Source: Saururus chinensis (lineage: Eukaryota; Streptophyta; Magnoliopsida; Piperales; Saururaceae). Taken from it: a stretch of DNA of 64,000 nt. Within the stretch, counting starts at the first letter, position 1, and every line of letters starts with the position of its first letter. Made by a program: the position numbers and the translations under genes. The stretch is from assembly GCA_035235625.1 (NCBI GenBank), contig CP141146.1, forward strand, positions 4,086,501 through 4,150,500. The letters are read 5' to 3'. This document shows, in pieces, positions 9,956 to 57,798 of this stretch. The notes under the pieces were generated by a model that had not been told where the DNA came from, made no database searches, and saw only the letters and a list, made by a program, of their open reading frames with translations.

Positions 9956-11111
<1,156 letters not shown>

Positions 11112-11365
11112 CGGTAATCTCAAATAGGGCTCATATACGTTTTTCCCATTAAGTAGAATTAGAAGAGGGGAGCAAGATGACATTTTCTTCGTTAGGAAGA
11201 AAAGAAGTGGACCCCGTAGGGCCCACATCTGAGGGATTGAGCCCAGAGGCCAACAACGCAAGAATTAGGCGGTCGAGATTCCTTCCCGACTCGGCCCATC
11301 TATCTCACTCTCTCCCTCCTGGGAACAGGCGGGGGCCGCTGCTCGTGTTCCTCTCCTAGTAGAAC

Positions 11366-16663: not shown

Positions 16664-16666
16664 ATT

Positions 16667-16679
16667 TGGTATTGGAGCC
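16667..16679 (+). other. Primer-binding site of element G
   Basis: TGGTATTGGAGCC lies three bases beyond the 5' LTR. The canonical plant initiator-Met site starts TGGTATCAGAGC, so the core carries two changes. Confidence 0.7.
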
Positions 16680-18730: not shown

Positions 18731-18769
18731 AAGCCTGTGAATTCTCTTTTAAATTTACTCAGCTAGCGG

Positions 18770-20733: not shown

Positions 20734-20772
20734 AACTCCTTTAGGATAAGTCATTTTTCAAGGGTGGTGGGA

Positions 20773-21134
20773 TGTTATGTCCCGTAATAATGTGTAGGTT
20801 AGGATAGGCAATTATTTGATTTGAGTTGTAGTAGGCTTAGCTTCGGTTTAATTAGAATTAGTTATAACTATGTTTATGTAGCCAGATGGCTTTTCCTATG
20901 TTGCCCAATGGATTAGGGCAACCTATTTATGCAATTTCTATTGTAATCAGGAACTAATAAGTGATTAATTGTTGTAATCTTTATCTTTCTCCATCTCTTT
21001 CCCCGACCCATTCTCCTGTGATTGCACTTGCTTCCAGCAAGTGTGCCCCTTTCTTCTCTCTCAGTCTTCCTCTTGTCTACCTCTCTTCCCTCTTACTCAT
21101 CCCTTCTCTTTTCTTTACTGCATATATCTTATCA
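20773..21134 (+). repeat. 3' LTR of element G
   Basis: The LTR is 362 bases, TG...CA. It is longer than the 5' LTR through an insertion near 20925-20975 (ATTTATGCAATTTCTATTG...) and differs at many positions, so the insertion is old. Confidence 0.9.
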
Positions 21135-21139
21135 CTTTC

Positions 21140-25045: not shown

Positions 25046-25486
25046 CAATTATTAGCCCCTCAATCAGTCCCATAGATAAAGGGACCAACAACCCCTTAGA
25101 CTTGGCGATAGACAACCAAGTCCCCTTGGCATCGGATAGCCAGAGATGTCCTTGGGCACTTGTGCACTTGGGCAATAGCGTTGGATTCGTTGGAGCATCA
25201 CTTGGTGCATTGGACAACATTAGGAAACACACCGAGAGAAGTCCTAGTGCAGGCAGGTCTTAGGTGGTGAGCTGGGCGCCACTACTACTTGGGGACGAAC
25301 TCCTAAGTCAGCCAGGACTCATCCATTCAGATTCTATAGTCTCTTAGCTCGAGTAGGAGATAGGGCAGTAGCTCCTCTTTTAGCTTGGAACTCTTGAAGG
25401 CATGGGCGCACAGGACTTCTAGCTAGAAAATAAGTCTACAAGTTTCCTAGTTTAGTCTAGGGCAACTTTCCTTAAGAGGGGGGAGT
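25046..25486. other. Unidentified stretch between copia remnant and candidate LTR
   Basis: No recognisable coding sequence after the copia RT start. It ends with a purine run, AAGAGGGGGGAG, at 25474-25485, resembling a polypurine tract. Confidence 0.4.
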
Positions 25487-27436: not shown

Positions 27437-27745
27437 GTATGTGCTAGTGATGGTTAGTGTGTATATTTGTAAGCTACGTATGTGGGATCTGTATGTGCTA
27501 GTGATGGCTAGCGTGTATGTTTGTAAGCTTCGTATGTGGATTGAGTATGTGCTAGTGATGGCTAGCGTGTTTGTTGGTAAGCTTCGTATGCAGATTGAGT
27601 ATGTGTTAGTGATGGCTAGCGTGTTTGTTGGTAAGCTTCATATGTTGATTGAGTATGTGCTAGTGATGACTAGCGAATATGTTTCTACGTATGTGTATGT
27701 ATGTGCTAGTGATGCCTAGCAAGTATGTTGATAAGTTATGTATAA
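27437..27745. repeat. 54-bp minisatellite inside LTR C
   Basis: Units begin GTATGTGCTAGTGATGG at 27437, 27491, 27545, 27599 and 27653 (exactly 54 bases apart), with a sixth, shorter step at 27699. Each unit contains GCTAGTGATGGCTAGC, a near-palindrome. Confidence 0.95.
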
Positions 27746-28484
27746 AAATATATGTATGTTATATGTATATATATAGACATACATATGTATGTTGGCTATT
27801 TGCCTATGCTATAGATATGTGTATGTGCATGTGGGCAGAAGTATGACCTATGGATGGTAAGAAGTGTGAGTGTTTGGTATGGATGTGTAAGAGTATGACG
27901 GATGACAGAGGATATGAGTATGATGGGTGAGGATTGGAGTGGATTATTTTGGATCAGAGCACATCTTGGGGGATTGTCAGACAGTAAGAGTGTGCATAAT
28001 TGTACAAGCATAACGCACAGATTATGAAGTAAAAAATAAGCATAATAAGTGAGGCATAAGTAAGAGGGTGATAACTAGGTTTGGCTCTGAGGAGCTTAGT
28101 TTGATGACGTTTGTGTAAGATGTTTTGGCCATAAGGTGGATGGCGGAGATTGTATGAATATGTAAGATTTTGGTGTACGGTGAGTTATGTTATAAGATGG
28201 ACATGTTAAGTGATGTCTACTGCCCCTACGAACTAGGGTTTTGGATCGGGCTTAGCTTCACTTTGATCAATGGAGCACAGTATGTTTGAGAGTTTGTATA
28301 GTATAATTGTACCGCATAATTTACTTAATTCAAACTTGAATTATAAAGAAAGCTAATGATAGCGTTGTGAGTTTGAGACCTGAGGGTTTCGACTGATTAA
28401 GTTCCTTGTTTGAGCTAGCCAATAATGAGTCAGCTGAGTATTTCTCATGTCTTGCCATAGTATTTATCCTGCGGGATGTTGTCC

Positions 28485-28675
28485 GTGTGCTGTATAGAGC
28501 ACCAGACGTCTGATGCTCTGTTGAGAGCGATGTATGTTTCCAATTTGGTTTGTGTGCTATATGAAGCCCAAACATTTGATGCTCTGTTGAGAGCGAAGTA
28601 TGTTTTTAATTTGGTTTGTGTGTTGTATTAAGCCCATACATTTGATGCTCTATTGAGAGCGTTGTATGATTTTTG
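28485..28675. repeat. 66-bp tandem repeat inside LTR C
   Basis: Three units start at 28485, 28552 and 28618, each containing TTGATGCTCTGTTGAGAGCG or a close variant. Confidence 0.9.
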
Positions 28676-30255
28676 CCCAATAGTGGCACCGTATGATTCT
28701 GCTCAAGAGTGACACTGTATGTTTCTACCCAAGTGGCACTGTATGATTTTTGCCCAAGAGTGGCACTGGCACTATAAGACCCATAATGGTGGGCAATTCT
28801 ATAACACTATAAGACCCATTATGGTGGGCAATTGTATGACCCCTTATGTGTGGGCATTTATGTTTGCGCACTCAGGTAAGTAATATCATGGACCTGCTCT
28901 TACCTGTTTGATCCTGTGCCCCATGAGCATTGGTGTGCCTTGCCTTCGGAAAAGTCTATGACATCTAGTCACTCCCCGGAGGTTAAGGTGATGCCCCAGT
29001 GACATTCTTTTTCATTTCGACGCTGAAGCTTACTATTTGTAATAAGCTTTAGTGGTTGATAGTATGTGTATGATTATGAGTATGAGCACGACTGTAAGAG
29101 TATGAGTATGTGTACGACTGTAAGAGTTTGAGTTTGAGCATGACTGTAAGAATGTGAGTATGAGTACAATTGTAAGAGTATGTTCTGAGTAGGACAATAA
29201 GTGTATGATTTTGAGTAAGACTGTATGACTAAGGTCGTACGAGTAAGATTGTACGAGTAAGGCCATATAAGTATGTGTAAGTTGTATGAGTAAGCATATA
29301 ATTGTATGAGTAAGGTCTATAGGTATGTGTAAGTTATTTGAGTAAGCGTACGATGGTATGAGTAAGTTTTTAAGACCCTGATTAAGGGTGTATATGTAAG
29401 ATTGGTTTGATAGTATGATTTTAGCTTGATGATATGCATGATTGTATGAGTATGAGCATGATTATGATATGTCTCCTTGCTTCATGTTTGAGTTTTATGA
29501 ACGTATCTATGTTTGAACTTACTGAGTTCATTGTTTAGAACTCCCTTACTGGGTATTTTTGTACTAAGAATGAAAATACTCATTACTCTATTTTTTAGCC
29601 CTGTTGTTTGGGAGTCTTTTGCAGGTTTGTGTCGGTGAGCTCCTAGAGATGGATGCTTGTTTCTGTGATGGTTTGACTCTCTTTGACTCAGGTATATACT
29701 TGACTCACTGCGAGCATTATTTTGTGTCACGATCTAATGTATTGGGTGAGACGAGAATTAAAGATGTTTATGTATTTTGGACTTTTACTTTGGATCAGAC
29801 TATGGATTGTTATGAGACTTGCACTCAGGGATGCCTGGGAGAGAATTGTATTTAAAGTCTATTATCATAGCAATTTATTTGTATGTTTATTTTCGAGTAG
29901 CGCCTGTGGATGTTTGGTTTGGCTGTACGATGTTTGATCGAATGAGTAACAATTTGGATGGGAAAAACTGATGTGTTATGTTTTAAATTATAAAATTATT
30001 TTCACAGGTTTCGTATTTGTCATTTTTTCCCGATTTATAGCAATTCTATTGTAAAATTTTTTCATAAAATTTGAGGAAAATGTATGAAAAATCTCGGGCA
30101 TTACAGGAGGGGCATCAGGTAGGTTAATCACTTTTGACTTGGATTTTCAACTAGACTCTCTCTGCCTTTGTTACGATGGATTGTAGCAATTAAGCTTAGG
30201 GTGGCGCTCCTTTGCACAAAGACGATGTGTTGTTGCTGAGATAATCTTCCCCATG

Positions 30256-34269: not shown

Positions 34270-35180
34270 GTAAGCGCTAATAACTATCACAGTGCCCGTG
34301 ACCCAGAGTTGACGACATGTTAACTGCCATCGATGGGTTAACATAGTTTGTCCAGGCTAAGCAAGCAGGAGGCAGCGGGTCTGAGTCTCTTTTGCTTGAG
34401 GGATTCAACAAGCTTAACCATCCTAGCTTTAAAGGCGGGTTAGATGCTTTAGAGTGGATAACTAGAGACTCCACATGGAGAAAATCTTCAGTGCCCGATA
34501 ATGCAGAGAGGAAGAGAAGACTTGACTTGCAATCTTCACATTTAAGGGTGAGGCTTTGTAGTGGTAGTTGTCCATGGAGAGATAGAGGTTCTAGGTCGTG
34601 TGGATATCCCTTGGGAGGAATTCTTATCTGCTTTCAGTGATAAATATTTTCCCCTCCACACGCAAGAAGAGAAGAAGGAATTCTTGAACCTTTAGTAGGG
34701 ATCTATAACAGTCTTAGCTCATGAGACTAAGTTTGTGGAGCTCAAACGCTTCGCACCTCACTTCTTTAGCGATGAGTATGAGCATGCAAGGAAGTTCAAG
34801 GATGGACTGAAGCCCTTCATCAAAGGCCGGGTGGTACCCTTCCGACATAGGACTTTGGCAGAGGTGCTTAAGACTGCTATCATCATGGAATAAGACTCAG
34901 AGGACTACATGAGAAAAAGGGGGAAGCAGCCTAAGAGGCCGAGACAGGGGGATTCCCATAGATGCCGAAGCCATAATCATCATGATGGTCATCATGCTAG
35001 GAACCACACTACCCATGTGCAGTCGGATGGCTAGGGCCGAAATGCTAATGTCACTTGCTACCTTTGTGGGCAACAGGGGCACTTTAAGATGGAGTGTCCT
35101 CGTAACACTCATGGTGGTGCACTAAGACATCCACTGGCGCCACCTAATGCTGGTCCTAGGTAGCAGGGAGGACCATAGGT
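34270..35180 (+). pseudogene. gag remnant of element E
   Basis: Broken frames contain FNKLNHPSFKGGLDALEWI (34402-34458), a segment reading FSDKYFPLHTQEEKKEFLNL (about 34638-34695), and HARKFKDGLKPFIKGRV (about 34783-34832). A CCHC zinc knuckle, CYLCGQQGHFKMEC, lies at 35058-35099. A frameshift near 34480 and several stops make it non-functional. Confidence 0.85.
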
Positions 35181-35645
35181 GAGGCCCCAAGCTAGACCAC
35201 CCACAGGGCAGAAGGATGCTAAGGAGAAGAGGCCGACTAACAAGGGGAAGGTATATGCTATATCGGCACACAAGGTGGCCAACTTCTCAGGCGTAGTGGA
35301 AGGTATGATCCTCATTGCCTCTCACCATGCTAAGGTGCTATTTGATACCAGTTCTTCTTATTCATTTCTCCGTATTTTACTTGTGAACTTGATGTTGATC
35401 ATGTTGCTATCCATTCTATTGCATGTCTCTAGTCCTTCATCTTCCTTTCGGGCAGAGGAATATCTTGAGATGGTTTCTATATGGATTGATGGGCACGAGT
35501 TGCATGTTGATTTGATTATCTTGCCTATGATTAATTTTGATGTGATTTTAGGCATGAACATGATGCCTAAGTATTATATACATGTGGATTGTCGGGGAAA
35601 GAAAGTGATCTTCACTTTGCCAGATGTTGAGCCTTTCATCTTCTA
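35179..35645 (+). pseudogene. Protease region of element E
   Basis: One open stretch contains VLFDTSSSYSFL (about 35335-35370), the aspartic-protease active site with DTG changed to DTS, and the downstream VILGMNMMPKYYIHVDC motif. A TAG at 35644 ends it before RT. Confidence 0.8.
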
Positions 35646-35672: not shown

Positions 35673-37903
35673 TTGGTGTTTTTTTCTAAGGCTAAGAGGT
35701 GGATTGACAAGGGGTGTGAAGCATTCCTTGTAAGCATCTTGGGGATGAATGCGTTGTTACCTTCTCTTGAGTCAGTGCGAGTTGTGGCGGAGTATGCAAA
35801 TGTTTTTCCTAATGACTTATCGGGGTTGCCACTAGAGAGGAAGATAGAGTTATATATTTATTTTATTCTAGGTGCGTCCCCTATATCTAAAGCTCCATAT
35901 CATATGACTCCAGCCAAACTCAAGGAGCTCAAGGCTTAACTGCAAGACCTGATGGATAAGAGATATATCTGACCGAGTGCATCTCCTTGGAGCGCACCGG
36001 TTCTCTTCGTGAGGAAGAAGGATGGTTCCCTTCGGTTATACATCGACTACTCTATTTTGAATCAGGTAACCATAAAAAACAAATACCCCTTACCTGGTAT
36101 TGAGGACTTATTTGATCAGTTGTTGTGAGCACATATTTTCTCTAAGATTGATTTGAGATCGGGTTATCATTAGCTTTGTATCCATCTAGACGATGTGTCG
36201 AAGATGATGTTTCATACCCGATATGGACATTATGAGGTCCTAGTAATGTCTTTCAGTCTAACCAATGTGCCAGCATCATTCATGGATCTAATGGATCGAG
36301 TCTTCAAGCCATATTTGGATCAATTCGTAATTATATTTGTGGATGATATCTTGATCTAGTCGGCCGGTAACATGAGGTGCATTTGATAATCGTTTTGCAA
36401 ACTTTACGGGAGCATTAACTCTTCACAAAGTTTGATAAATGTGAATTTTGGTTGAAGAAGGTGTATTTTCTTAGTTATGTTATATTGAAAGGCGGTGTGG
36501 CAATTGATCCTTCGAAAGTTGAAGCCATGTTGAGATGGGAGTGATTGAAGAGTGCATCTGAGGTTCACAGTTTCTTAGGGCTCGCAAGATACTATCGTGG
36601 ATTCATTGAGGGTTTTTCTAGCATTGGAAGCCCCATGACCCAGCTAACAAGGAAGAATGAGAAGTTTGAGTGGAACCAAGCATGTGAAGAAAGCTTTTAA
36701 GAGTTGAAGAAAAGATTGACATCAGCTCTGGTTTTGATTTTTTCTTCAAAGAGTGGTGGATATGTGGTCTATAGTGATGCTTCACTTCGGGGTTTGGGAT
36801 GTGTACTCATGCAGCATGGGAGAGTGGTAACTTATGCATCTCGACAGCTTAGAGTGAGCGAAACTATCCCACTTGTGACTTGGAGTTACCGGTCATGGTA
36901 TTTGCATTGAAAATTGGTAGCACTATCTCTATGGTGAGAAGTTTGAGGTGTTCACGGATCACAAGAGCTTAAATTACCTATTCACACAAAGGGACTTAAA
37001 CATGAGGCAAAGGAGATGGTTAGAGTTCCTTAAGGATTATGACTTTACTATCTCTTATCATCCTAGTAAAGCTAATATAGTAGTGAACGCCTTGAGTAGA
37101 AAATCAGCCACTTTGATAGCTTGTGTGCGTGTCCAAGAATGACTCTTGTATGAGGAAGCTATTGAGCTTAAGTTGGAGTTAGCTATGGAGGATACATGTA
37201 GTTAGTTTGCCAACTTTTTCATAAGCTTTAGTTTAGTTGATGATGTGGTTAAAGCTCAAAAGAGGGATGAAGAGATTCAAGCTATAAAGGCTCAACTGAG
37301 AGAGAAGGCGGTGATGAACTTTAAGGAGAGGTCCGATAGGAGCTTGACTTATAGAGATAGATTGTGTGTGCCAAACTCCACTGAGCTTAAAGAGTATATC
37401 TTGTCGGAGGCATATCACTCTAGGTTTTTCATTTACCTAGGAGGAACCAAGATGTATCATGATGTGAAGAGGACCTTTTGGTGGAGTGGTACGAAGAAGG
37501 ACATTGCTTCTTTTGTGTTTAAATGCCTTATTTTTCGACAAGTTAAGGCAGAAAATTGTTATCCCGGTAGTTTGGTACAACCCCTTCCTGTCCTAGAGTG
37601 GAAGTAGGAGAATGTGGCTATGGACTTTATTTTCAGACTATTGAGTTCGCCGAGCGGTAATGACGCAGTGTGGGTCATTGTTGATCGACTCACCAAGTCC
37701 ACACACTTTCTTGCGATGAGGATGACTACTTCTCTTGATGTGCTAGTTGCCTTATATGTGAAGGAGGTTGTATTCCAGTGTCTATTTTTTTTTACCATGA
37801 TCCTTGCTTTACTTCTCGATTTTGGCAGTTTTTAGAGAGCCTTAAGTACATCATTGCATTTTAGCTTAGCTTACCATCCTCAGACTGATGGGCAATTATA
37901 GAG
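35673..37903 (+). pseudogene. RT, RNase H and integrase remnant of element E
   Basis: Visible are the RT start [20 protein letters not shown] (about 35992-36050), the catalytic FVDDILI box (36336-36356), RNase H VVYSDASLRGLG (36759-36797), the integrase HHCC region (37405-37545), and the start of the integrase core with [12 protein letters not shown] (37658-37693). It ends at HPQTDGQ near 37900. Stops occur at about 35938, 35971, 36126, 36357, 36541 and 37140, with additional frameshifts near 36373 and 36915. Confidence 0.85.
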
Positions 37904-39744: not shown

Positions 39745-41320
39745 TTATCAAACAGATCGTTACAATGAGTTTATTTTTAAATATTATATAAAATAGCTTT
39801 ATGTAAATGTAAACTTTCACACGCATATTATTAATTATTTAAATTATCACTTTTTTTTCTTCCTTTTAACTTCATGCCATTTTTTTATTTCTATCACCTT
39901 CAACTTCGGCTCCGGTACCTCTACAGCCTTTACTATTTTCACCACTAATTTCATCATTTTTGTAATCGATTTTATTTCATCATATTTATTTTCACTTTCT
40001 ATTCTACCATCACCTTTTCTTTGTCCCATCTTTTATCACCTCTTCATCTTCTTTTTCCTTCTTTCCCTCTTTTTTTTTTTCTCCCCTCTTTTTCTCCTCC
40101 TTTTTTCTTCTCAATTTTGTTCGTTTATTCTCTCTCAAAATCTAGCAAGGCCAATTAAAAACTAGCTAGTGGAGCCATTAAAAAACAAACTTTTTTTATT
40201 TACAAACTCTAATATTAAAAAATAAACTCATAAATATGTTAAATTACTCAAAATTAAAAATAAATTTAATTTTCACTTAATTTTGAGTTTTTTCTAATGC
40301 TAATATAAATGTCTTCTTGACAATCAATAATTAGATTTGTTGCAATAAAAGAAATATAAGATAACATTATGAGTGATAATGTCTTCCTAAATATTTACAA
40401 TGAACTGTTTTAATAAACTACATAAATAAAATAAAAACTACAGTAAACTTTAAATATGCGATTGTCGACTATCAACTGTCAATCGTTGATTGTCAATTGT
40501 CATAACATATGGGGCTAGAGACTACCTTCTTCTTTGGCGCTGACAATGAGAATCTTCTCCTCTGGCGTCAGTGATCTTTTATTGATGTGTGACAATCGAC
40601 AATGGAGACATTCGACAACCGACAGTCGAGACAACTAATAGTTGACAATCACATGTTTAAAATTTATTTTATTTTTTATTTTAACTATGTAGTTTGTTAA
40701 GATACGTCATTATAAATACTTGAGAAGACATTGTTACTCATAATGTTATATTATATCACCTTTATTGCAACAAACCTGATTGTCGACTATCAACTATCAG
40801 TACAAGGTTTTGGATTAACGTTAGAGAAAGCTTAAATCAAGTACAAATAAAACTCATTCTTGGTTTTGAGTAGTTTAACATGTTTATGAGTTCAATTTTT
40901 AACATTTGAGCTTGTAGATAAAAAATATTTGTTTAATAAATCTATAAACTAGTTTATAGTCAGTCTTGTTAATTAGATTCTAATAGGAAAAAAGATGAGG
41001 CGACGACAAGGAAGATAGAGAGGAGGAGGCAAGAGGAGAGAGAGAAAGAGGAGGAGGTGGCAAAAGAGAAGAAGAGGAGAAAGTGATAGTGCTGGAGAAG
41101 GTGAAGACAAAATTGGATGAAATAAAGCTAGTGGCAAAGACAATAAAGTTGGTAATAGAGGAGGCAAGGTCAGTGGTGAGCATGAGTAACAAGGAGTTAG
41201 TGAAGTTAAAATGAACGAAATATAAAAGGGGTAATTTAGATAATTTATACCACATGTGTGGAGGTTTATATATGTATAGGGTTATTTTGTGTATTACTTA
41301 AAAGTAGGAGACATTTGTAT
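39745..41320. repeat. Large imperfect palindrome (arms about 740 bp)
   Basis: The left arm, 39745-40505, is the diverged reverse complement of the right arm, 40585-41320. Landmarks pairing across the centre: TTTGTTGCAATAAAAG (40338) with the complement of CCTTTATTGCAACAAAC (40759); ATAACATTATGAG (40362) with CTCATAATGTTAT (40738); CTCATAAATATGTTAAA (40228) with TTTAACATGTTTATGAG (40874). Farther out, the polypyrimidine tract 39850-40135 pairs with the purine-rich tract 40985-41215. It resembles a long-terminal-inverted-repeat (Mutator-like) or fold-back element without transposase. No target duplication was confirmed. Confidence 0.85.
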
Positions 41321-42516
41321 AATATATTATATTTAAGGGCCATTTTGGCTAATTCTTTTTTAATTTAAGCTTTTAAATAGTGCCACCCCCATATGGTAAG
41401 TTTTCAGTTTTAACTCTATTGCTTAATCTCGTCATAAACGAAAATGGAATGAAGTACAGAAGAAATAAATCAACTCATGTTTGGATAAAAAAAACTGTCA
41501 TTTCCAAACAATCATACAAAATCTCCGAACACTTTGGAAATTAGTAAAACCGATGGACTTTTTTGCATGTGCACAACAAGCAAGCAAAACGACACTTTAT
41601 GATGAAAGTGCTGTGGTAATATAAGCAACTAGATGGGACCTAATTGTAAGGGACGGTGGAAAGTTTCCAGCAAAAAAAACATGGCACGTTAATTCCTCAC
41701 ACCAAGTTCATACCTTGTTTCTTTAATGAACGTCTCTATGGTATGACAATTCTAGGGGGTGAACGAGAACGATAGTTTCGTTATCACCGCCAACTACTAT
41801 AAATGTAACAGTGGCATTTAGGTGCGTCTTATAGGTAGGGTATGGACGAGGAGAATAATCCATATGTAATGCCACAAAAGAATAAGCAAAGGAAATAAAA
41901 GAATCTAACGGCTGATTGTGCACCTTTGATGGGAGAAATTTTCAGATGTGCGTACCACACCATGTTGCCTGTATATTCAACCACTCAAGACATGATCCTA
42001 TCAGTAGAGAATAACTGTTGGTTGCCCTGGCATCTCGCGTACATGCATACTATGCTAATGGGTTATTTGGTGAATGGTAAAATACACTACCAGCATCAAC
42101 ATGTGTTCAATACATAACTAAAATTTTATCCTTTAATAGGGGTTCGTCAAGAAAAAAAAGGAAAAAATTCTAATTTAGGCTTATGTGAACTCAAATCTGC
42201 TTCTGAAGTTAGCCATTGATGGCCCATAATACTTACATAGTGCACACGTGAAACTTTACCGGCGGATTTGAGTACAGCTCATGTATGTTGTTTGGATGGG
42301 CTAATCACGTGATTGGCAAGTGTTGGGATATAAGAAATGAAGGGTTATCCATTTGCATACCCAAGACGTATCTGATGATTAAGCAGTTAATCTCATAATT
42401 GTGTTACTATCATCTTTAAACACCCAATAAACCCACAAGTAATGTGGGAGATAGTATAGTCAATTAGAGAGCCAATTTCCCCATATAGATAATCCTCATG
42501 AGACTTGTATTGAAAA
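41321..42516. other. Intergenic region before element B
   Basis: Low gene content. The short frames at 41723-41923 (-) and 41926-42117 (+) have no family signature. Nothing else is recognisable. Confidence 0.5.
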
Positions 42517-45500
42517 TGTAATGTCAGAGAATTTTCTAAATTCTTGAAGTCATACACGTGAAAATTAAGGTATAGGACCCCTTGACCTTTCTGTGGGAGT
42601 AACTTAATCATCAGTTGGAAGTGGTGGCTGAAATACATATTAATGGAAAGTAAATAGAAAGAGCTTCAAAATGCTACCAAGAATGCACGAATCGGAGTCC
42701 GGATGAGGGAGAAACGACTGTCTGAACTTGAACATATTGTGCAGGACCCATTTACCCGAATTGAACGTGTGAATTATCCGTTTAAGTCACTACACAGGCC
42801 CGATCAATTAACATTCCGAATTTGTATTTTTGGGGCCCAATTTGGTTGTTGAATTAAGGAGATTTTGGCCTAACTCCATATGGATTGAAAACCCTAATGG
42901 TATGCCTATAAAAAGGCTAATTGGGGCTTTTTGGGGGGAGCTTTTTGGGACGGAGGATGAGCTGCCGTTAGAATTTTTTGGCGAAATTCTAGCGATGCTC
43001 TGGTGGTGATGGATCGACGACAAATCGGCCTTCAAGGTAGGATTTTGAATCAATATCAAAGATAGTTTATTATTAAAATATAAATCATTTTTGTATGTTG
43101 TGAACAGTGATATCTGCAATCACTGTTTACTTCTGGACGTTTTCTGACTACCGGCCGACCGCTGGTGGCTAGACCTATTGCAAGGAGGGGGGTATGCCGG
43201 TCTTGGCTGCGGCGGCTTTGGATCTGGCGACCTTGACGGCGGCGGATTTGCTGCCACCGGATAAAAAAAAAAGAGATGAGCCTTACTGCAGCGCAGCCGC
43301 CGGCCGGGGGATGGACCAGGGCTACCGGAATCGCCGGAAGATGGCGATCCGGTCAAGCCCGGCCCATCGGTCAGCTGTAGCGGCTTGCCGTCACGACGGC
43401 ATCGCTGGATTTCAAAAAAGAAAAGGGGAAGTAGGGAAAGTGGCCGTTTTGGCCACCGTCTGGCTACAAGACGGTGGCGGGACCGACCTCGTCGGTTCCG
43501 CCGTGTGCCAGCGGTTAGAAAACCGGTGAGCCGCCATCCCTTCCCCGTGGTAGGGGGTGGCACCGCCAGAGGCTGAAACGCCTCTGGCCAGATGCGGGGA
43601 AGACGACCCGTGTTGCGGGTCGTCGACCCAAACTGACCCGGTCCAGGTCGGTTTAAAAAAAGAAGAAGAAGAAGAAGAGAGAAGGGAGTAAACCGGGTCC
43701 GGTTCAGGGGGCTAAAAGTGTTAAATAAATTCTAGAAAAATATTCATGTATCTAGAGATATTTGGGATTATTCTGACAGAGTTTCAGCAAGGGGGAAAAT
43801 CCCAGAGACTATGAAATAACCTTTTTACCCCTATTAGTTAATTATCGTATAATATTAATTTCCCGAGTTCAAGCTCCGGTTCAGGGGCTTTGAGTTGATC
43901 TATAAATTGGAAAAATTCTCAGTGATAATTTAAAGAGCAACCTAATTATATGCCAAACTAAAAAATGAGGAAAAATCTCAGTGGGTGGATAATTGACCCT
44001 TTTGCCCTTAGGGTTTATAGTAAACCATTAAGTCAACTTGGGTCGGTTCAAGGGGTTCATGACCCCGTCACATGCCAAGAAAATTACACAGAGTCCATGA
44101 AGTCAAGTAGTACCCTTGACCCTAATTTTGGACCCATTGGATGTCATTAAGGTTTTAAACCAAATAATATAAATACCCCTTAGGGTGGACCCGTCCACAT
44201 TCATTTGAATGGAAGCACGAGTCAGTTTGAGAGTGGAGCCTTCTAAGAGGTTAATGACTTAAAATAAATAAAAGGGTAGTGAGATGACCTAATGACCTAA
44301 GGGAGGGTAGAATACCCCTAAGTGGTAGAATTACCCTAATGCCCTTAGGGGCAATATGTTCTATTTCTGATGAAACAGATGACCTAGTGAATCAAGAGTT
44401 AAGGTACCCTATAAATGACTTCAAAAGGAAGGGGTGTGACCGGTAGGTGACACGAAGACCTTGACAGGTCACAGTGTCATGGAAAACCAATGGAAAACCC
44501 TAATTCTCAGCATTTAGGGCAGTGTATTGCATGTGTCCGTAACACAGCATAGAAATCCACTAGGGCATTATATATGTCACTCGTGGAATATGTTAATTTA
44601 CATATCAGGCTTGAATTCTCTGAGCCCTAGCCTTGTAAATGAATGCAATGAGCCTCCATTTATTATTTATACGTTTGTATGACTACATGATTATTTATGC
44701 TGCTGCATGCTTTTGATATTGATGCATTGATTTATGTCAGTAACTTAAGATTAATGAAGATTAATTAAGAGACATGGGTTGTTGTTGGTTTGGAAGGAGA
44801 ACATCTAATTAAGATAATGACTAAAATACCCTCTTTAGGGTTGGGACCAGTTCATGGAGTGAACAGGGCCCTGATATAGAATTTGACCTTAGTTAATGAA
44901 TTGAGGGTGGTTTTGGGATGTTCTTCGAGTCATAGCTCAATAGATGATCTATTTAGTGGGCCAATTCACAAGGTGAAGAGGACCCACCTGGTTGAGTGGC
45001 TACATGACTGGATCAAAATAATCTAGTCTAAGTTTAAGATGCTTGGGGGAGTCAATGGTCATAAGGACCTAAGACTTCTATTAATACATTAGTAATGTCT
45101 TATAAGACATTTTCTCCCAACGTTGGGAAGGTGGAGATTGCAATATGCATCTTCATCGCCATGACGGTTTGGGTATTGACCAGAGGGTCTTTACAGCGGG
45201 TCTCCCACAAGTCTTCCTAGGACTATTTAGTATGTACAAAAAGTGGAGTTGTATGAGCATCATGTGCAACGCCTGAGATTTTTCACACATTTTCCTTAAA
45301 ATTCATAGAAAATTTTTGCAATATAACGTCTATAAATCAGAGGAAAAATGACGAAATCAAAACCTGATAAAACAATTTATAATTTAAAACAGTAAACATC
45401 CATTTTTCATCTAAATATTTTCATTATACAGTCAAACATCATACGGTCAAATAAAATATCATCAGGCACTACTCAAAAACACACGTACGACTAAATTGAC

Positions 45501-46677
45501 TTTAAATACAAATATCTCTCAGGCATCCCTGAGTGCAAGTCCCATAATAGTCCATAGACTAATCCAAATGAAAGTCCAGAAAGATAAACATCTAACTTCT
45601 CATCTCACCCAATACAACAGATCATGACACAAATAAACTCGCAGTGAGTCAAGCAAATACCTGAGTCCAAGGGAATCAATCCACCTCGGAAGCAAGCATC
45701 CATCTCCAGGAGCTCTCCACACAACCTGCGAAACCTCCCATACAACGGGGCTAACAAGTAGGGTGATGAGTATTTCCATACTCAGTAGGAAAATACCCAG
45801 TAGGGGAAACCAACACAGTGAACTCACTAAGTTCATAAATACATGCATTCATGCAACTCAAACTTGAAGCAAATAGGCATAACATAATCATGCTCATACG
45901 CATACAAACATACCAAATGCACCATCGTGCCAAAGTCATACCAAATGCACCATCGTGCCAAAATCATACCAAATGCACTATCGTGCCAAAATCATGCCAA
46001 AGGCACCATCGTGCCAAAATCATACTATCAAATCAAACTTACACAAACACCCTTATCTAGGGTCTTACAAACTTACTCGTACCACCGTATGCTTACTCAT
46101 ACAACATATACATACTCATACAATCATACTCGTACGACCTTCCTCGTACGGCTTACACAAAATCACACTTACTGTCTTACTCAGAAACATACTCTCACAA
46201 TCGTACTCATACACATACTCTTACAGTCATGCTCATACGCTTACAGTCGTGCTCATACTCATATACTTACAGTCGTGCTCACACTCATATAGTCGTACAC
46301 ATATCAACGACCACTGAAGCTCATTATCACTAATAAGCTCCAGCGTCGAAATAGAAAAGAATGCCACTATGGCAACACCTTAACCTCCGGGGAATGACTA
46401 GACGCCCTGGACTTTTCTAAAGATAAGGCACACCAATGCTCATGGGGCACTGGATCAAACAGGTAAGAGTAGATCCATGATACTACTTACCTGAGCGCGC
46501 AAATATAAACACCCACACATAAGGGGTCATACAGTTGCCCACCATAATGGGTCTTATAGTGCCATAGAATTGCCCACCATAATGGGTCTTATAGTGCCAA
46601 TGCCACTTTTGGGCAGAAATCATATAGTGCCACTTGGACAGAAACATACAGTGCCACTCTTGGGTAGAATCATACAA

Positions 46678-46925
46678 CGCTCTCAACAGAGCATCAACAT
46701 TTGGGCTTATACAGCACACAGACCAAATCGAAAACATACGTCACTCTCAGTAGAGCATCAGACGTTTGGGCTTCATATAGCACATAGACTAAGTCAGAAA
46801 CGTACATCGCTTACAACAGAGCATCAAACGTCTGGGCTTATACAGCACGCAGACTAAATCAGAAACATACATCACTCTTAGCAAAGCATCAGACGTTCGG
46901 TGCTCTATATAGCACACAAACAACA
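46678..46925. repeat. 66-bp tandem repeat inside LTR D (four units)
   Basis: Four units of about 65 bases, each with AGAGCATCA.ACGT and a GGGCTTATACAGCAC-like part, starting near 46678, 46739, 46805 and 46870. Element C has three. Confidence 0.85.
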
Positions 46926-47629
46926 ACCCGCAGGATAAACACCATGGCAAGACATGAGAAAAGCTCAGCTAACTCATTATCGGCTAGCTCAAACACGAAA
47001 CTTAATCCATCGAACCCTCAGGTCTCAAACTCACAACGCTATCATTAGTTGTGCTTATAATTCAAGTTTGAATTAAGTATATTATGCGGTACAATTATGC
47101 CACACAAACTCACAGTCCTCAACTGATCAAATCGAAGCTGAGCCCGATCGAAACCCTATTCCGTCAAGGCAGCAGACTTCACTTACCCGTCCACATCATG
47201 GACAAAACTCATCGTACATCAAACCCTTACAGTCTTACATACTTCGCCATCAATCTTATGGCCAAATCATCTTACACTGACATCATCAAATGAAGCTCCT
47301 CAAAGCCAACCCAGTTGTCGCCCTCTTACTTATATCTCACTTGTTATGCTTACTTTTCACTTCATAATTTGTACAATTATGCACACTCTTACTGTTTGAC
47401 AAACCTCACCCGTCATACCCTTTTCCTCTGACATCTGTCATACGCTTACACATCTGTATCCAGATCCAGACAAAACCTCTGTCACCTCTTACTGTCCATT
47501 GCCCATACTTCTACCCACATATACTTACACATATCCCTATCATAGGTAATTAGTCATCATACATACGTATGTCAGTCAAACATACGTATAACATACACAT
47601 ACGGTCATATATACGTAACTTACAAACAT

Positions 47630-48070
47630 GCTCACTAGCCATCACTAGTGCATACATACACATTTATACATACGTCAAACATACACGCTAGTCATCACTG
47701 GCACATGCATACATATGTCAAACATACACGCTAGCCATCACTAGCACATGCATAATCCATACATACTCCAAACATGCACGCCAACCATCACTAGCACATG
47801 CATAATCCATACATACTTCAAACATGCACGCTAGCCATCACTACCACATGCATACACATACATACATACATACTTCAAACATGCACGCTAGCCATCACTA
47901 GCACATGCATACACATCCATACATACTTCAAACGTGCATGCTAGCCATCACTAGCACATGCATACACATACGAAGCTTACCAACAAACACACTAGCTATC
48001 GCTAGCACATACTCAATCCACATACGAAACTTACCAACAAACACGCTAGCCATCACTAACACATACATAC
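47630..48070. repeat. Minisatellite inside LTR D (about nine units)
   Basis: The core GCTAGCCATCACTAGCACAT recurs about nine times with spacing from about 41 to 58 bases. It is the reverse complement of the core of the 54-bp array in C, which has about six regular units. Confidence 0.9.
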
Positions 48071-49026
48071 ATCCAACGTACTTACAGCCAACATGCATGT
48101 CATATGCATTTCGACATACCATATAATCATGCTTACATGCACATCATGCAATCGAATCGTTACTTAATATCCAAAGCATGGAATCATACAATCCTAGCAT
48201 GCTACTACTCATTCAAAGTATGCTATCATGAATTTACGAGTTCAAAGCTCCCCTACCTCGTAATCATGACGTTTGATGGCGAGCACATGATGGTGGTGGC
48301 GTCGGTAGTGGAGTTGGCGGCCAAAACCATTGCCTGGATGAGAGAGCTACTATCCCGAGGGTTTTAGGATGTGCCGGAAACAATCAAGGCCAAACAGGGT
48401 GTCAGAAATCAATGCGGCAATATCTGCGATCCACGGAGGCACACTAGGGTGGTTGGGAGAAATATCGTGCCAACATATGTGGTGGAGCGACCAGAAGTAG
48501 ATGGTGTACTCACTGAAGATCGGCCGGTGGCTAAGACGTACTCGGCCGGCCACAAGATATCGAAATTGGCCATGGACAACACCCAACGACGACAATTTTG
48601 TATCAACAAGGGCCCACATATGGGCAGAGAGTGTGGGACAACGCTCGAGAACAAAGGAGAGGTGGTGGAGGCTCTAGTGGTCAACTCTACTCGGTGGCAA
48701 AGCCAACCGATGGTCAGGCGGAGCAAATGCGGAGCCTAAACCCAAAAGCACACGCGTGGCCACATGCACACGCGACCCAAAGGGGCAAGGGAGAGGGCTA
48801 AAAGGAGACGACTTAAGGCCCACAAAAGGCCAATAGGGCTAAGGCCCTAGCTGTGGCCAATCAAAGCGGCGACATCGCCGATAGCCACCCACAACCAAAA
48901 CCCATGGTGCAGGCAGCTGTGCATCTCGCACGGTATATGGCAAATAACAAGTGGCCCATTCCAAGCGAAAGAATAATTGGGCCAAGTGGGGCTGACCCTC
49001 ACTATCGCCGAGCCAGGGCAGAGCCC

Positions 49027-50458
49027 TGATCGTTTATAATTAAACCCTTTGCAAGTGTACAAGGTAATTGTACTAGGATAAGTATTTAAGGATTGTCGAA
49101 CCTCAGGGATGGATGAATTATTACTAAATCTAAAGCGGAATTTGCTGAATAAAAAGTAGAAAGAACTTAAACTTAAACTAAGCAAAATAAAGGAATCAAC
49201 TAGTTTAAAAATAAGAGATTAATATAATAAAATTTACTTAGGAAATTGAATCCACTATAGAACCATAACAATTCCTTAATTTTTAATCTAAATCTAGTGT
49301 GAATATGAGCAAGTATTCTCAGCTACAAGCTAGAATTACTTCAAAAAGAATCAATAATTAAATTCCATGGCCTGAACTATCTTCGACAATAGCACGAATC
49401 ATCTACACTAAACTAGCTATAGGCATGACCCGTCTAATCTTAGTAAAACTCATCCAAGTCATTAATTAATTGAACATTAAAACTATCGTATGACCATCTC
49501 ATCTAAATCACAGAAATTAGAATTGATGAAAATATCAAAACCATATCAATCTATCATCTACAAGACAATAAATCATCATAGACTTGAATAAATATTAAAA
49601 ACTCTTCCATTAAAAAGGAAATCCATATCATACAATTGTCATCATTCACAACTAAGATCTAAATTTAAAAGAAAAGAAACCGAAACTTATCTATAGTTTC
49701 ATCAACTCCTAAGTAAAAGAAAAGTCTAGCCTTCCACTGTAGAAGAAAGCACTTTAATCTTCATTAAAAGCTTTGAGTTCTCTTCCATCTTCTTCTTCTT
49801 TTTTCTCTTCATAAAATCTACTGGAATCCCCCAATTTTGAGCCAAATATGTCTTTTTATAGGCATAAGCTCCGTAGGAAGAAGTCCAATATGAAAAGGAT
49901 TGAAATTTGGGTTAAACTAGGAAACTGCATGTTATGCTGTTCAAACGCCCTGCATGCCTGTTCGAATGCGTGAACTGAGTTTGGCTTCAAAATCATGTTA
50001 TCCCCATCGAACGGTAAGTGGCCCCATTCGAACGGCTACAATGTTTCTGCAATCTGGACAATTTTTCTCGACAGTCTATATTCTGTTCATTAAACTTTTT
50101 TTCATGTCCATATTGATTTCCAACTTGTTTATAACTCCAAAAAGTTGTCCAAATCACTTTAAAACATGTCAAGACTATTTTAAATTATTTCAAACATCGT
50201 CCAAGTACTTCGATAAGTGCACTTTACCTACAAAACATAAAATATCATCCTTTAGACATGTATAATGTAATTAAAATTCTAACTTTGTTCAAATACATAT
50301 CTAAACTACTAATAACTATAAAATTATTAATAATTAAACTAAAATACTAATATCTATCTTAATCTAAATAAACCATAACTAACTCTAAATTAACCTAACC
50401 TATACTAGCAAATACGGTAAAAAGACATATAAAATAGATATATATTTCATATTTATCA
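49027..50458. mobile_element. Element H: 1432-bp solo LTR inserted in D
   Basis: The element begins TGATCGTTTATAATT and ends CATATTTATCA, with short inverted ends TGAT/ATCA. It is flanked by AGCCC at 49022-49026 and 50459-50463. Comparison with element C (around 26470-26530) shows an uninterrupted GCAGAGCCCACGATG-like sequence at this point, which confirms the insertion. It is AT-rich with no coding capacity. The LTR family cannot be named and the orientation is not certain. Confidence 0.85.
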
Positions 50459-52262
50459 AGCCCACGATGGCCAAATGGCCCACAACTCGCCGATGGCAAG
50501 ATGCACCCAAAATGTCTAATCGGGCGGAGCAAGGCAATAAGGGCGAGGCGGGGTCAAAAACGGCAAACCCCTACCGATACTAGGTCGAGGTAGGCTAGAC
50601 GGAGTCCTACCGGTGGCTGGATGACAATCGGAAACCCACCGGCATCAAAATAATGCCACAGATAGTGAGATGGAGAATGTGAATAAAAACCCGACCAAAG
50701 TACCGGTAGCTCACCATATAGCAAAGAAAGCATGGCGGCGACTCTAGCCAGCGCCTATGGGTTCCTAGCGGCCAACTAAACATAAGTCTAGTTGAGAGCG
50801 GCTGCAAATGACGTCAAAATCGTCCACCCACAGTTCAAAAACGGGATTGAAGGAGAGAAAAACCTAAAAAAAGGTTCGGTACCTTGTCGAGGAGCGAAGA
50901 GGCCATGACAGTGGTCATAGCTAGTACCTACGGACTCGTGGCAGTGAGGCAAAGCAGATCATGACAAGAACCACTGGAATTCGTTGTCGGAGGAGGGAGA
51001 ATGGAGCGACCGGAATTGAGCTCAGGTTTTCTCTTCTCCTCTCTAGATGTGAAAACATTTCTGGAATGTCGGTTCTGTGAAAACCGATGAGTGGAAAGAT
51101 ATATATAGTTAATCTTTTTAATTTTTATATTCATGTCCCTAATACGCATTCACGTACTGGTTACGCATTGTAGCTCTAAAATTTGTGTCACAAGCGCGCA
51201 GCGAGGCCCACGGCCTGCGATTAAGCCCCACACTCGACTCTAGGGGCATAAATATGGGGTATGTATACATAAATATGAATATGCCAAAGCATCACATTTT
51301 CCTGCTGAAAATGACTAGAAAAATAGTAAGAAAATCACAAAAAACTGTAGAAAAATGAGGGACCTTACATCATGGAAGACTTGTGCTTTTCGCCAATCTG
51401 TGTCCATGAGCACAGTTAGGATCCTCTTCTCCAGATTTGGGGCAGGTTATTGAGAGCCCTGGGGATTTGGGTAAAGTTGCTGTTAAGCAATCCACTCCAA
51501 GGCTGGAGTACTTTGTTTGGAGATTTCTCGAGGGGCGAGTTATCTCTGAGTTATAGATTTGATAATATTAATTATTGAACAAGGGATGTAAGATAATTAA
51601 TAATAATGTTTGATATTGCATGTTAATTAGACAAGTGAAACGGTTAAAGGACAAACTAAAATGTAGGTTGAAAATATCTAAGCATTGCATGTGTGATGCT
51701 ATGCTTCTTAGGATAGAGTAGTTTCTAAGCAAAACTACATCTAGATCTGATCTTGTTGGAAACATTGGAGATGTTGTCTGATGAGTACGTAGGCAACTAA
51801 TATCGGATGATGTTGGCCCGATCCAAAAAATATTAATAAAACCTTTTGTCCTCTGGAAGCTCTTTTCCTGTAGGTGGAGATGCACCATTGTGGTTGTAGT
51901 TGTTGTTTGGTTTGCTTTGTTGCAGATCCTCCAGGCGACGACAAGTGAGACCAAGGCAGGCATGCATAAGAGGTTTTTGCGTTTGTGTAACTCCAGTATG
52001 TAAGTGTACCTTAAGCGTGAGAGTCAACTTATTATTTATTTTCAAACGGATGATGGACTTGTACTTAGATGAGCTGGTCTTTATGAATTTTCAGATGTTA
52101 AATAATATCATATGATTTGATATTCGTATTTGTGAACCCCAGTTATCATGACTTTGATATTTAATCGAAGAGTTTGTTTTGTATTTAAAGGAAAAAAATT
52201 CTCGCTACTTACTGTTCGTGCTATTTAAAAATAATCTTAAAAATCCGGGTCGTGACAGAAAA

Positions 52263-52456
52263 ACACTTCGGACAGTTAAAAAACTCTAAATTTAGAAAAT
52301 TTGTGTCATTATTCACCAAGGTTCACCATCTCTTACCTTGGGGATTAAAGGGTACGCAGTCGGGTGGTTCTAGTAAACAATGGCTGAAGTTTGAATAAAA
52401 GGAGCACACATTAATGTGGATCAAGGCGTGGTAACATTCATCAAATCTTAAAATAG
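52263..52456. other. Short spacer between element B and a MITE
   Basis: Nothing recognisable. Confidence 0.5.
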
Positions 52457-52458
52457 TA

Positions 52459-52542
52459 CTCCCTCCATCCTAGATTACTAGTTTCATAATTTTAGTTTAT
52501 TTTGAAAAATCATACGAAGCTATTAATCTAAAACGGAGGGAG
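52459..52542. mobile_element. Stowaway-type MITE, 84 bp
   Basis: The terminal inverted repeats begin CTCCCTCC and end GGAGGGAG, extended inward by ATCCTAGATTA / TAATCTAAAAC. The flanking dinucleotide is TA on both sides (52457-52458, 52543-52544), the Stowaway/Mariner target preference. Confidence 0.9.
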
Positions 52543-52544
52543 TA

Positions 52545-54077
52545 CAAAAATAAATAAAATGGTCCACAAAGTTAGTGGCTACTATGTGCAAACGCGGTTA
52601 CTGGTTCTCTACAACAATGCAAGTAGGTTTGCAAATGCATGAAAATATTTTGAGGCCCCATAGAGTTACCGTGTTACCTTGAATTATCCAATGCAAAGTT
52701 GTCAATAGGGTTGTCAAAGCAAACTTAAAAGCTCGACTTCGTTCACATTTGATTCAATTTGACTCATGTTCAAGCTCAGATTTAAAGTTGGTTAAATCAA
52801 ATATAAGCACATATATCCGTATTCGCTCAGCTCAACTCAAAGCTCAAGAAAAATTTAAACTCACATTAAGTAATATTGTTTTTTTAAAATACATTCATGC
52901 ATATATTACACATTGTATATAGATTTATTTCATTCATATATATTATTTTCACTTTTTCAAATACAATTATATTGGGTTTTTTTATTAGAGGAGTTAGATA
53001 ATGTCTCATGTGAACTAAGAACTACTTTTTTATATAACTTTATGCTCTCCATTTTGTATTTATAGTCTAAACTAAGAATTCAAAATTAGTTAAAACTAAT
53101 TTATTTAGTTTTTTTATCCTAACACATTAGACCGCTTTTTAGCCATGTTTGTATTGTTAATCTTTTTTGTAAATACATTCAAGGCACTAATTACAAAATA
53201 AACAAGGATCACAAGCTAAAGATATTCTATTCTAATCAAACTTGAAATTGAAATATCAAACTCAAACAAAAATAGTCCAAAGTTTGATATGACTCAGCTT
53301 ATTAGCACCCCTTACACCCCTAGTTATAGGGAAACCTTCATACTTGAGCATATGTCATAAAGATGTGGATGTAATTAAATTGTCATAAATGCAAAGAAAA
53401 AAAGGGAAATGAAGGAAAATAAATTATTTTCTATATTTATGGGTCCCATACAACACAATGCATTTTTCTTATTTTGGGTACACCTACAGCACAATGCATC
53501 AATAAAACGACTTCATTGCAAAAAAAGGCTAGCAATCCTTGTTGAGGAAAGTGCTTCGTGGCTCTCCATCCACCACAAAAATTTGCAAGGAGTGAGAGTG
53601 ATAGACACAATTGTTTAGATTTTGCTTCTACTTTGATCAAAATTTGACTACTCACTGTACACAAGTTCACGTTGACGTGCATATATAAGCCAAACTTAAG
53701 TTAATTGATCTTTTTAAAATTTTGTTTTGATGATAAATAAATATACATCAAATACAAAGTGATGGAGGCATGTTTATAAATAGGGTTTATAAAAGGGGAT
53801 TACCATGTTGAAAAAGGAAGTATTTTTAATGCTCCCTTCTAACAATGAATCAGCATAAGAAATATATAAGAATCCTTTGTTTATTAGATTTTAGGTGTAC
53901 TTACTAGCGCATATTAGTACTAGTATTCCGTTGATCTTGAATAAAGGACTTCTATGCATTCTTTAAATTAAGTTCATTGTTAAATAAGAGTATAAAAAAC
54001 TTGTTAAAGAGGAGTATGAAAAACTCTCTGGGAGAGATAATGCATAGCCCAATAACATCTGTTACGACAACACATTA
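52545..54077. other. AT-rich intergenic region
   Basis: No gene recognised. The frames at 53409-53618 (+) and 53437-53682 (-) overlap each other and have no family signature. Confidence 0.5.
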
Positions 54078-54272
54078 TGAGTAGCGTTTGATAGTGCTTA
54101 TTGGCGTCTGAAACAAAAAAACACAAAAAAAACTGCTTGCTTCTCTCGCACCTTCTGATTACGCTTCAGGTGTTTAACTTCTGAACAGGTAAATGCCCAT
54201 TTTTAAGACTACCCATTTAGACGCTTTTCAGTATTTTCAGTACATCAGATTCAGATCTACCGAATGCTATCT
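54078..54272. mobile_element. Candidate hAT-type MITE
   Basis: The ends TAGCGTTTGATAG (54082) and CTACCGAATGCTA (54257) are inverted repeats with three mismatches. The interior, with GTCTGAAACA, CTTCTGA, CTGAACAGGTAAATG and GACGCTTTTCAG, resembles common plant hAT-derived MITEs. No 8-bp target duplication is visible. Confidence 0.45.
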
Positions 54273-57015
54273 AAGATGAAGCTGAATTGTTAATTACTCT
54301 CGAAATTGAAGCAATAATTTACATTAGATGATGGAGTAACAGAAACGACCTATGACCGGAGATGCTCACACTACGAGATAAACATCTTTTAATGTTGCAA
54401 GGCCTGTTTCTTGTGGGCAGGTGGAAAGCATAACCCCTTATAATGCGCTAGTTAATAGTACTCTTAAGTGTTGTATGTGTAGAAGAAATACGATTTTGTG
54501 TGGCTTTGACTGTGACATTTGTATGAACATGCAGTCTGCAATTACAGCATGTTTTCTATTAAGGAGATGGACTAAAAATCTTTCACTTGATGAAGCAATG
54601 CTAATAGCACTACGAATCGATTGCAAGCGGACAAGCTATCGTTGTAGATGATGTTTCCAGGAAATCCAGTCATGGGGCGTCTTGGACGTCAATTGTGACA
54701 GCTAAATGCGCCTAGTTAAGCAATTAGTCATATATAGCAACTAATTAAGCATTATTCAATGGTTAATTTGGGGAGTGTCCCACGACCGATAGACGATTCA
54801 AAGGGAGTTTATAATTTCTAGTGACATGAAGAATAAGGAAAAGAAAGACGTGATGATCATCATACAAGGCCAACAGGAACAATGGCAGTGAAAGCAGGTA
54901 GAAGAGGCAGAAATAATCAATAAAGTGCTTAGACACCTAATCACTTGGCCACTAGACACTAAACAAAGAGAGATTGTAGGTCATGTCTTGGGGCCCTGGC
55001 GATTATCTCTTTTCACTGTTGCTCATAGATGATGACATTTGTTTAAAACTGGGAAATTAGGTGTAGAACAGCCCATACAAGCACCATTTAAATCACAATC
55101 TTCAGCTTGGATACTGGTCCATTGGACCCATTAAGTCCCATTCGGTTCTCGTGTATCTGAAACAAAGGACAAGACCAATCATGTCTCCGAAAGATGCCTA
55201 GTACATATTTGTTTACCTCTCATTAAGGTTTCGCACATAAGAATTCTAGAATAGTCGAAGCTCATGTAGATCTTATTCACATCCAATTATTTCATGAATA
55301 CTGTTATTTTCCTCCAATTATATACCTAATATTCCTCAAAAGAAAAAATGATTGTTTTTTCTTATTGTTCAACCCCATAGTTTCCCACTATTTTGTTAGT
55401 GGTCACCCCTAACATATTGTGTCTTTCTTTTCGCTTTTTCTTCTAACTGATGTAGGCAGTTAATTGCCGATGCCGGCTATAATTTTTTTGAATGTTGGTA
55501 TTTAAACCCCACTCTTTTATCTATGTCCCCTAATTTTTTTCATCTCACCATATTTTATATCTCTATTCTTACCTTATTGATTTTTTTGTACTTTTTTTCC
55601 TTTTTTATTACCGGTGTTCTTTATCTGGCACTAGCGCTGATGCTGGTGACCTTCATAACGAGCAACTACATTAGCTATTGACGACTAGATTTAGAGTCGT
55701 AGCCAAAAGAAATAAGAGAGAAAAAAATTAATATTATAAAGAAAAAATAAATAAAATAAAAAAATATATATAAAATAAAAAAATAAAAAAACTACTTTTA
55801 TAGTTTTTTCAGGGGGGGGTTGGGGCACGGAAAAAACGAGGTCTAAATAGCATCATTTTATTTTATTACCAAATCATAACCCTGTCGTATCTGGAGTCAA
55901 GGCCAGGGTGCCTATTACGGCTAAGTCGGGCCAGAGCTATGGATAGATCGGGCTTGGCCTGGCCGGTCCACAGCGGGCAAGGCGACCCTCACCAGCCCAT
56001 AGTGGCGCAGGCTAGGGCCCGCGGCGGGGAAGGTTGGGGCTGATCTAGCAGCCCTTGCGGGGAGGTTGGGGGGGGGGGCCTCGGTGGGGCAGGGTAGGGG
56101 GATGCCTGCTGAAGGGTAGGCTGGCCGGTGCGACTGGCCCTTTAGCAACACGGCGTAAAAACAAAAAAAGAGAAGAAAACAAATAACAAGAGGGGCATGT
56201 ACGAGCAATCTTTTTTTATATTTTATGGGACGTATGAGTAGCGGGGGGTTAGCAACGTTCTTATTTGATTTACATCGCGAAGTAACAAATAATGATCCCT
56301 TAGATACAAACCCAACGAGCGTCCCAAGTCCCCCAATTATCCAGTTGGTAAATCATCTGTTTGTGAAGCAAGTCAGTCAAACATAACTAATAGCACAAGA
56401 ATCTGAAATAGACTCAAGTTTGCGCGATTATTAGCTTCAGTCTCGGTTCCTCCCTCTACGGTTCACGGTCCTGGGTGGCACGGCGATTGGAGGATAGCGC
56501 AAACCAATTAATGCAGCTGTTTACGGTGGACAGGGGAGGGCATGGATGGTGAGCAGGTAAGTACCAACCCATGCATGCCATGTCCAAACAGAAAGGGTAC
56601 ATCAGATGGGTCAGGGAGGAAGGAGCCCCTTCCATGGCCTGAAACTGCCATCCCCTCCCCTGGCCATTCTGTCATCACTCATCACTATGCTAGGCTACTG
56701 AGTGCCACCAAAGAAGACACGTGAAAAATGTAGGATGCAGAAGTTGTTGGACCCCATGTATAGAGGCAAGTATGCACACAAAATAAAAACGAATGGACAT
56801 GTCCAGAGGAGCCGAAAGAAAAGCGCCAAGAAGAAGAAAAGCCCCAGGAAGAGGAAGAAGAGATTGAAGAGATCGAAGGAAGTTAAAATAGAGAGGAATG
56901 TTGATTTGGTTGGTAAGAGAAAGGGGAAGAACAAAGGTGTGGCCCCTTGCCCTAGGAAAGGGTCCTACATGATACCCCTTCACCCCTTAGTTTGTCCCTT
57001 TCCTTCCCTACTCTA
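54273..57015. other. Intergenic region upstream of the DREB gene
   Basis: A frame at 54421-54651 with several Cys-X2-Cys pairs begins with GTG and has no family match. A/T-only tract at 55690-55800. A G-rich block at 55920-56130, with a short - strand frame, looks like repeat debris. A purine-rich stretch at 56700-56930 gives a Lys/Arg-rich frame without an ATG. None is accepted as a gene. Confidence 0.5.
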
Positions 57016-57018
57016 TGA

Positions 57019-57027
57019 TCATAAAAG
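57019..57027 (+). promoter_or_regulatory. TATA-like box of the DREB gene
   Basis: TCATAAAAGG precedes a C-rich leader and lies about 80 bases before the ATG at 57106. Confidence 0.5.
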
Positions 57028-57105
57028 GCCCCCTCCCCCTTGCAATTTGTGCACCAGTCCACATTAGCTTCTACCCCCATCCAACCTAACCACCCCCATT
57101 CAATT

Positions 57106-57798
57106 ATGGGAATGGAAGGGGGGCCTCTCACCACAGATCCTCAGCCCATTACTTCCTCTCCTTGTTCCTCTTCTTCTTCTTCTTCCTCTTCTAGTCCTTT
57201 TACTTCAAGTCTCAAGACTCCCAAGGAGTCAGGTAGCAAAGTGGTAGAGCGCAAGGAGAGGAGTGACAACAAGCATCCAACCTATAGGGGAGTCAGAATA
57301 CGCAACTGGGGCAAATGGGTGTCCGAGATCAGGGAGCCCAGGAAGAAATCTAGGATTTGGCTGGGGACCTTCCCAACTCCGGAGATGGCAGCCCGGGCGC
57401 ATGACGTGGCGGCGCTGGCCATCAAAGGCCAGGCCGCCTACCTCAACTTCCCGGAGCTGGCCAACGAGCTGCCCCGACCGGTATCCTCCTGCCCCAAGGA
57501 CATCCAGGCCGCTGCCGCAAAGGCTGCTGCCTCGTCATTTGACGGGTTGCTGCGCGGCCACGCTGCCTCCGCCGCAGCTGAGCCTGCCGACTCCAACTCA
57601 GCCTCCCCCACCACCATCAACAACTCCGACGAGTTGTCCTCGTCAACGACGAATTGCGCATCTCACGACGAGGACGACGCCTTCATAGACTTGCCGGACC
57701 TCACCAGCTTGAGTGATGGGGTCTACTACTCGAGTTCTTCATGGGTGCCGGAGGGTGCGTTCCGGCTAGAGGAGCCATTTGTGTGGGAATGTTACTAG
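57106..57798 (+). CDS. AP2/ERF transcription factor, DREB A-4 (TINY-like) group
   Basis: A single exon of 693 nt encodes 230 aa. The protein should bind DRE/CRT-type promoter elements in the nucleus and regulate stress or growth genes. The AP2 domain spans residues 60-117, from [19 protein letters not shown] to LNFPEL. The DNA-contact positions that separate DREBs from ERFs are Val at residue 72 (position 14) and Glu at residue 77 (position 19), the DREB pattern. A basic stretch [14 protein letters not shown] precedes the domain, as in nuclear-localised members. The [20 protein letters not shown] segment after the domain and the acidic tail with DLPDL and EEPFVWECY are typical of the A-4 group. 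The N-terminus has a run of 10 Ser. Upstream in-frame codons to 57040 lack an ATG. The coding sequence is GC-rich, unlike its AT-rich surroundings, which is usual for monocot DREBs. Confidence 0.95.

Follow-up and report, generated by a model that had tools for sequence, protein, structure and literature searches.

The window analysed here, a 64,000-nucleotide stretch of the Saururus chinensis genome, contains between positions 42512 and 52262 three sequences lying one inside another, and the question raised by this locus is what these units are and how they came to be nested. The outermost unit, B, is a long LTR on the plus strand between two copies of GAAAA (42512-42516 and 52258-52262); its 5′ part (42517-45264) begins with TGTAATG and has a TATA-like box near 42907 (offset 390), and its 3′ part (51375-52257) ends with GGGTCGTGACA (GTGACA). 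Between these parts sits a second long LTR, D, on the minus strand and thus opposite to B, with its duplication, TCATG, at 45260-45264, within the right end of the 5′ part of B, and at 51370-51374. D is itself divided into a part at 45265-49026 and another at 50464-51369, the latter with the 5′ terminus of D (minus strand, TGTAAGGTCCC). The sequence dividing it is H, a 1432-bp insertion (49027-50458) with TG...CA ends, probably a solo LTR, flanked by AGCCC at 49022-49026, within the right end of the first part of D, and at 50459-50463. Including the nested insertions, B spans 42517-52257, D 45265-51369 and H 49027-50458; the net lengths, obtained from the coordinates by subtracting the inner insertions and one duplication copy for each, are 3631 bp, 4668 bp and 1432 bp, respectively. 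The duplication of D can be extended by two bases, CA preceding the left TCATG and D itself ending in CA, and its phase is settled by the TG...CA rule. Boundaries, duplications and nesting are observed directly, and the coordinates, boundaries and exact 5-bp duplications given for the three nested units in the initial annotation were all correct.

A second copy of D without H, designated D′, lies on the plus strand at 25577-30105 (4529 bp from its coordinates), between two copies of GGAGG (25572-25576 and 30106-30110). Comparison of the window with itself showed that D and D′, on opposite strands, are 75-78% identical by block. The main blocks cover D from end to end with H omitted: D 51369-50459 aligns to D′ 25577-26486 and D 49026-45265 to D′ 26482-30105, the second match being made up of two blocks that overlap at tandem repeats. 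Tandem repeats of ~50-54 bp are found inside both D (47605-48069) and D′ (27437-27706), in arrays that differ in length. The alignments on either side of H share five bases of D′, GGGCT at 26482-26486, which is AGCCC read on the opposite strand, and at the aligned junction D′ has a single copy of GGGCT where D has two copies around H. D′ therefore carries an unoccupied H site of one 5-mer, again a direct observation, and H is a true insertion. The ends of D′ are the same as those of D and are nearly symmetrical, with TGTAATG(T/C)CC at both, and D′ has its own exact duplication and no interior. Since each copy has an exact duplication of its own, D and D′ represent two separate insertions of one unit, neither with an interior, and the existence of a second, independent copy with identical ends and its own duplication supports the reading of D as an LTR. 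TG...CA ends together with an exact short duplication on both sides were found in all four units (B, D, H and D′).

The surroundings of D′ were also inspected. AAAGGGAGG precedes D′, and the idea that D′ closes a leftward element as its 3′ LTR was set aside, since GGAGG is present on both flanks. A TATA box, CCTATATAAAGGGAGG, lies just before D′, and we take the sequence around D′ (25400-25576 and 30106-30140), by eye, to be of the copia LTR type; D′ may also be a nested solo LTR, in copia-like sequence. A stop-free segment beside it (24955-25260) gave no Pfam match.

The identity of B was assessed with a diverged relative, B′, at 2571-4974 (minus strand). On that strand, just right of 4974, there is a polypurine tract, AAGGAGGGAAGAA, followed by TGTAATATCCC, the LTR start of B′. 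Under loose scoring, the first 1745 bases of B (42517-44261) are 66% identical to B′ 4974-3236 and a second block of 204 columns is 68% identical, while under default scoring a 503-column stretch inside the first alignment reaches 82%. The two termini of B both recur in B′, the 3′ one over 11-12 bases only: TGTCACGACCC, with one edit allowed, occurs within the window only at 2571 and at the right end of B, and this common terminus differs by a one-base indel. The last 237 bp of B′ match B at the terminus only, the 3′ part of B being otherwise without a collinear match in B′, and the right part of B has a single significant match to B′ (E 8e-4 over 41 columns), which does not follow the common order. 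Because B′ shares both termini of B and adjoins a polypurine tract, B is an LTR, which we regard as observed through B′. No matching flanks were found for B′, which therefore resembles the terminal part of a larger, disrupted element rather than a solo copy. An unoccupied D site was not found in B′, in which this region has no alignable counterpart, and the joined flanks of B, self aside, had no match at E below 0.1 within the window that could be an unoccupied B site. B′ was also considered as the 3′ LTR of the plus-strand pol sequence at 2-2493, which was ruled out because B′, to judge by the polypurine tract, lies on the opposite, minus strand. The initial annotation had called all three units solo LTRs. 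LTR identity is supported for B, through the polypurine tract beside B′, and for D, through the independently duplicated second copy that shares its ends; for H, the unoccupied site in D′ demonstrates insertion only.

Neither 42400-52400 nor D′, H and the two pieces of B taken by themselves contained terminal direct repeats, the matches found being tandem repeats or short and weak. A Pfam scan of the open frames of at least 150 aa in B (two) and D′ (one) gave no match (0 of 3). These results agree with the earlier claim that B, D and H are without internal regions. The window showed no full-length element in which B, D or H forms an LTR pair, and no paired D-type LTRs.

We consider it very probable that three LTR retrotransposons were nested by insertion and that in each of them recombination between the two LTRs later left a single one. 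B would have inserted into older DNA, D into the LTR of B in the opposite orientation, and H into the LTR of D, with 5 bp of target copied on each occasion. The two LTRs of each element would at some stage have recombined, deleting the coding interior and one LTR and leaving a single LTR between intact duplications. We infer this loss of the interiors through LTR-LTR recombination. Intact duplications on both sides are described, in the passages cited from PMC2672092, as the product of recombination inside one element, and they would not be expected after recombination between different elements. The nesting fixes the order of insertion as B, D, H, and to this extent the order of events proposed initially holds; the nest does not fix the order of the LTR-LTR recombinations, and the interior of B, for instance, may have gone before D arrived or afterwards.

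Could the nest instead be a product of chance TG...CA pairs with matching 5-mers, or of an assembly join? Such pairs are common: a 5-bp duplication flanks 454 of the 430,662 TG...CA pairs spaced 1-10 kb apart in 40000-56000, a count that includes B, D and H, and 28 of the 30,669 TGT...ACA pairs of the same spacing and region, a count that includes B. A duplication by itself is for this reason weak evidence. The nest stands above chance because homology places most ends independently: the alignment between D and D′ breaks precisely at the two termini of each copy and at the two edges of H, the ends of B coincide with those of B′, and the unoccupied H site in D′ is a single 5-mer, against which an accidental nest or a faulty join is barely credible. 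A further explanation is that H belongs to another class of mobile element with 5-bp target duplications. No relatives of H were found within the window, and it is classed by its TG...CA ends, 5-bp duplication and size, features from which it would be an LTR. The precise termini (TGAT...ATCA), the duplication, a TATA-like box and the finding of no terminal inverted repeat beyond TGAT all speak against another class, which we hold to be unlikely; internal direct repeats of H were limited to short weak matches. The TATA-like box, on the minus strand at offset 598, also weakly suggests that H is in minus orientation.

An origin without recombination was weighed for D, and perhaps H, as non-autonomous single LTR-like units that never had an interior and used the integrase of another element. 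Both copies seen, D and D′, have the same content of 4.5-4.7 kb, exact duplications and no interior, and a D-type pair is absent from the window, all of which such units would explain. However, a single LTR contains neither a primer-binding site nor a polypurine tract, and no route by which it could pass through reverse transcription is known. We judge these units to be very improbable, and the specific proposal that D-type units spread as interior-less single LTRs, with a chromovirus integrase acting on their nearly symmetrical ends and with D and D′ never having been two-LTR elements, to be more improbable still. Also relevant is a regression of the solo/full-length ratio over the chromosomes of fifteen plant species, for which the passages cited from PMC7251063 give an intercept of 2.69. 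With 2.69 as the typical ratio, ~73% of copies would be solo, and simple arithmetic gives a chance of ~0.39 that three of three are solo and of about half that two of two are. Repeated LTR-LTR recombination, as suggested in the initial annotation, fits B, D and H; the alternative offered with it, that the elements were short from the start, may still apply to D and H but is unneeded.

B and D likely come from Ty3/gypsy chromoviruses of the Del/Tekay type. Del LTRs are reported to measure 1143-4831 bp, and the U5 end of type A to have GGG at -8 to -10 (PMC4029996, passages cited). B, D and D′ (3631, 4668 and 4529 bp) all lie inside this range, as does H, which is yet not proposed as Del. Among the U5 att letters, D′ has GGG at the type A place, D has AGG, and B has GGG one base off. 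The very long LTRs of B, D and D′, the GGG of D′ and the presence of a chromodomain pol in the same window are like the Del/Tekay lineage, whereas the want of recognised coding sequence in B, D and H, and att letters that fit only in part in B and D, are unlike it. The pol sequence, on the plus strand at 2-2493, has reverse transcriptase, RNase H, integrase zinc-binding, SH3 and chromodomain matches in pieces split by stops or frame changes, and its chromodomain match, at 25.6 bits, is just above the cut-off of 25.1.

A further element at 30-38 kb has TGGTATCGGAGC at 34024, which we take to be an initiator-Met primer-binding site, and downstream of it a protease match (35179-35643) and an integrase zinc-binding match (37206-37604); its presumed LTR starts near 30704 (by eye). 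We compared the last 700 bp of five LTRs with the 3′ part of this presumed LTR, using 100 shuffles each. The observed score was reached by 4 of 100 shuffles for D′, 35 for D, 2 for B, 72 for B′ and 16 for H, and in four control stretches put through the same test by 25, 38, 26 and 90. Given these controls, the 3′ regions of the LTRs showed no clear homology to the iMet-primed element, and a shared U5 motif with that element, expected by eye, was not borne out by the alignment test.

Other elements are present in the window. Direct repeats at 16324-16667 and 20773-21138 (~344 and 366 bp) are 71% identical; the first is followed by the primer-binding-like TGGTATTGGAGC, the second is preceded by the purine-rich AAGGGTGGTGGGA, and a protease match lies between them (18369-18725). 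The interval 16324-21138 looks like an old gypsy-like element with paired LTRs, and the window seems to hold one paired element beside the four solo units B, D, H and D′. The LTR start of this element, TGTTATGTCCCG, resembles that of D′. When aligned with its reverse complement, the ~750-bp interval 40183-40934 shows 71.5% identity, which makes it a large fold-back or MITE-like element, and a short palindrome is found at 10956-11116 (10984-11116 against its own reverse complement, 95.5%). An 88-bp Stowaway-like MITE, TACTCCCTCC...GGAGGGAGTA, lies at 52457-52544, ~200 bp right of B. An open frame with an AP2 domain occurs at 57025-57795.

Solo LTRs nested in other elements are already known, and the nest is a clean but ordinary example. 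In the passages cited, an INVADER1 LTR is described within COPIA2 LTRs of Drosophila with a tool that, as presented there, does not check duplications (PMC2672092), a solo LTR inside a copia-like element of Bryonia dioica (PMC2898664), and complete elements that contain solo LTRs as a situation covered by a detection tool (PMC11020628). The Drosophila and Bryonia dioica cases share with the present locus a single LTR inside another retrotransposon sequence; unlike them, the nest described here has three levels with an exact 5-bp duplication at each. The Drosophila arrangement differs further in that INVADER1/COPIA2 multiplied in tandem, and no such tandem was found in this window. Retrotransposons of plant genomes usually turn over in this way, by nesting and by loss through LTR-LTR recombination, and prior knowledge is left unchanged by this locus. 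What the nest provides is a clean three-step chronology of relative insertion, with a matched unoccupied site for its youngest member, H, which is useful for annotating these LTR families.
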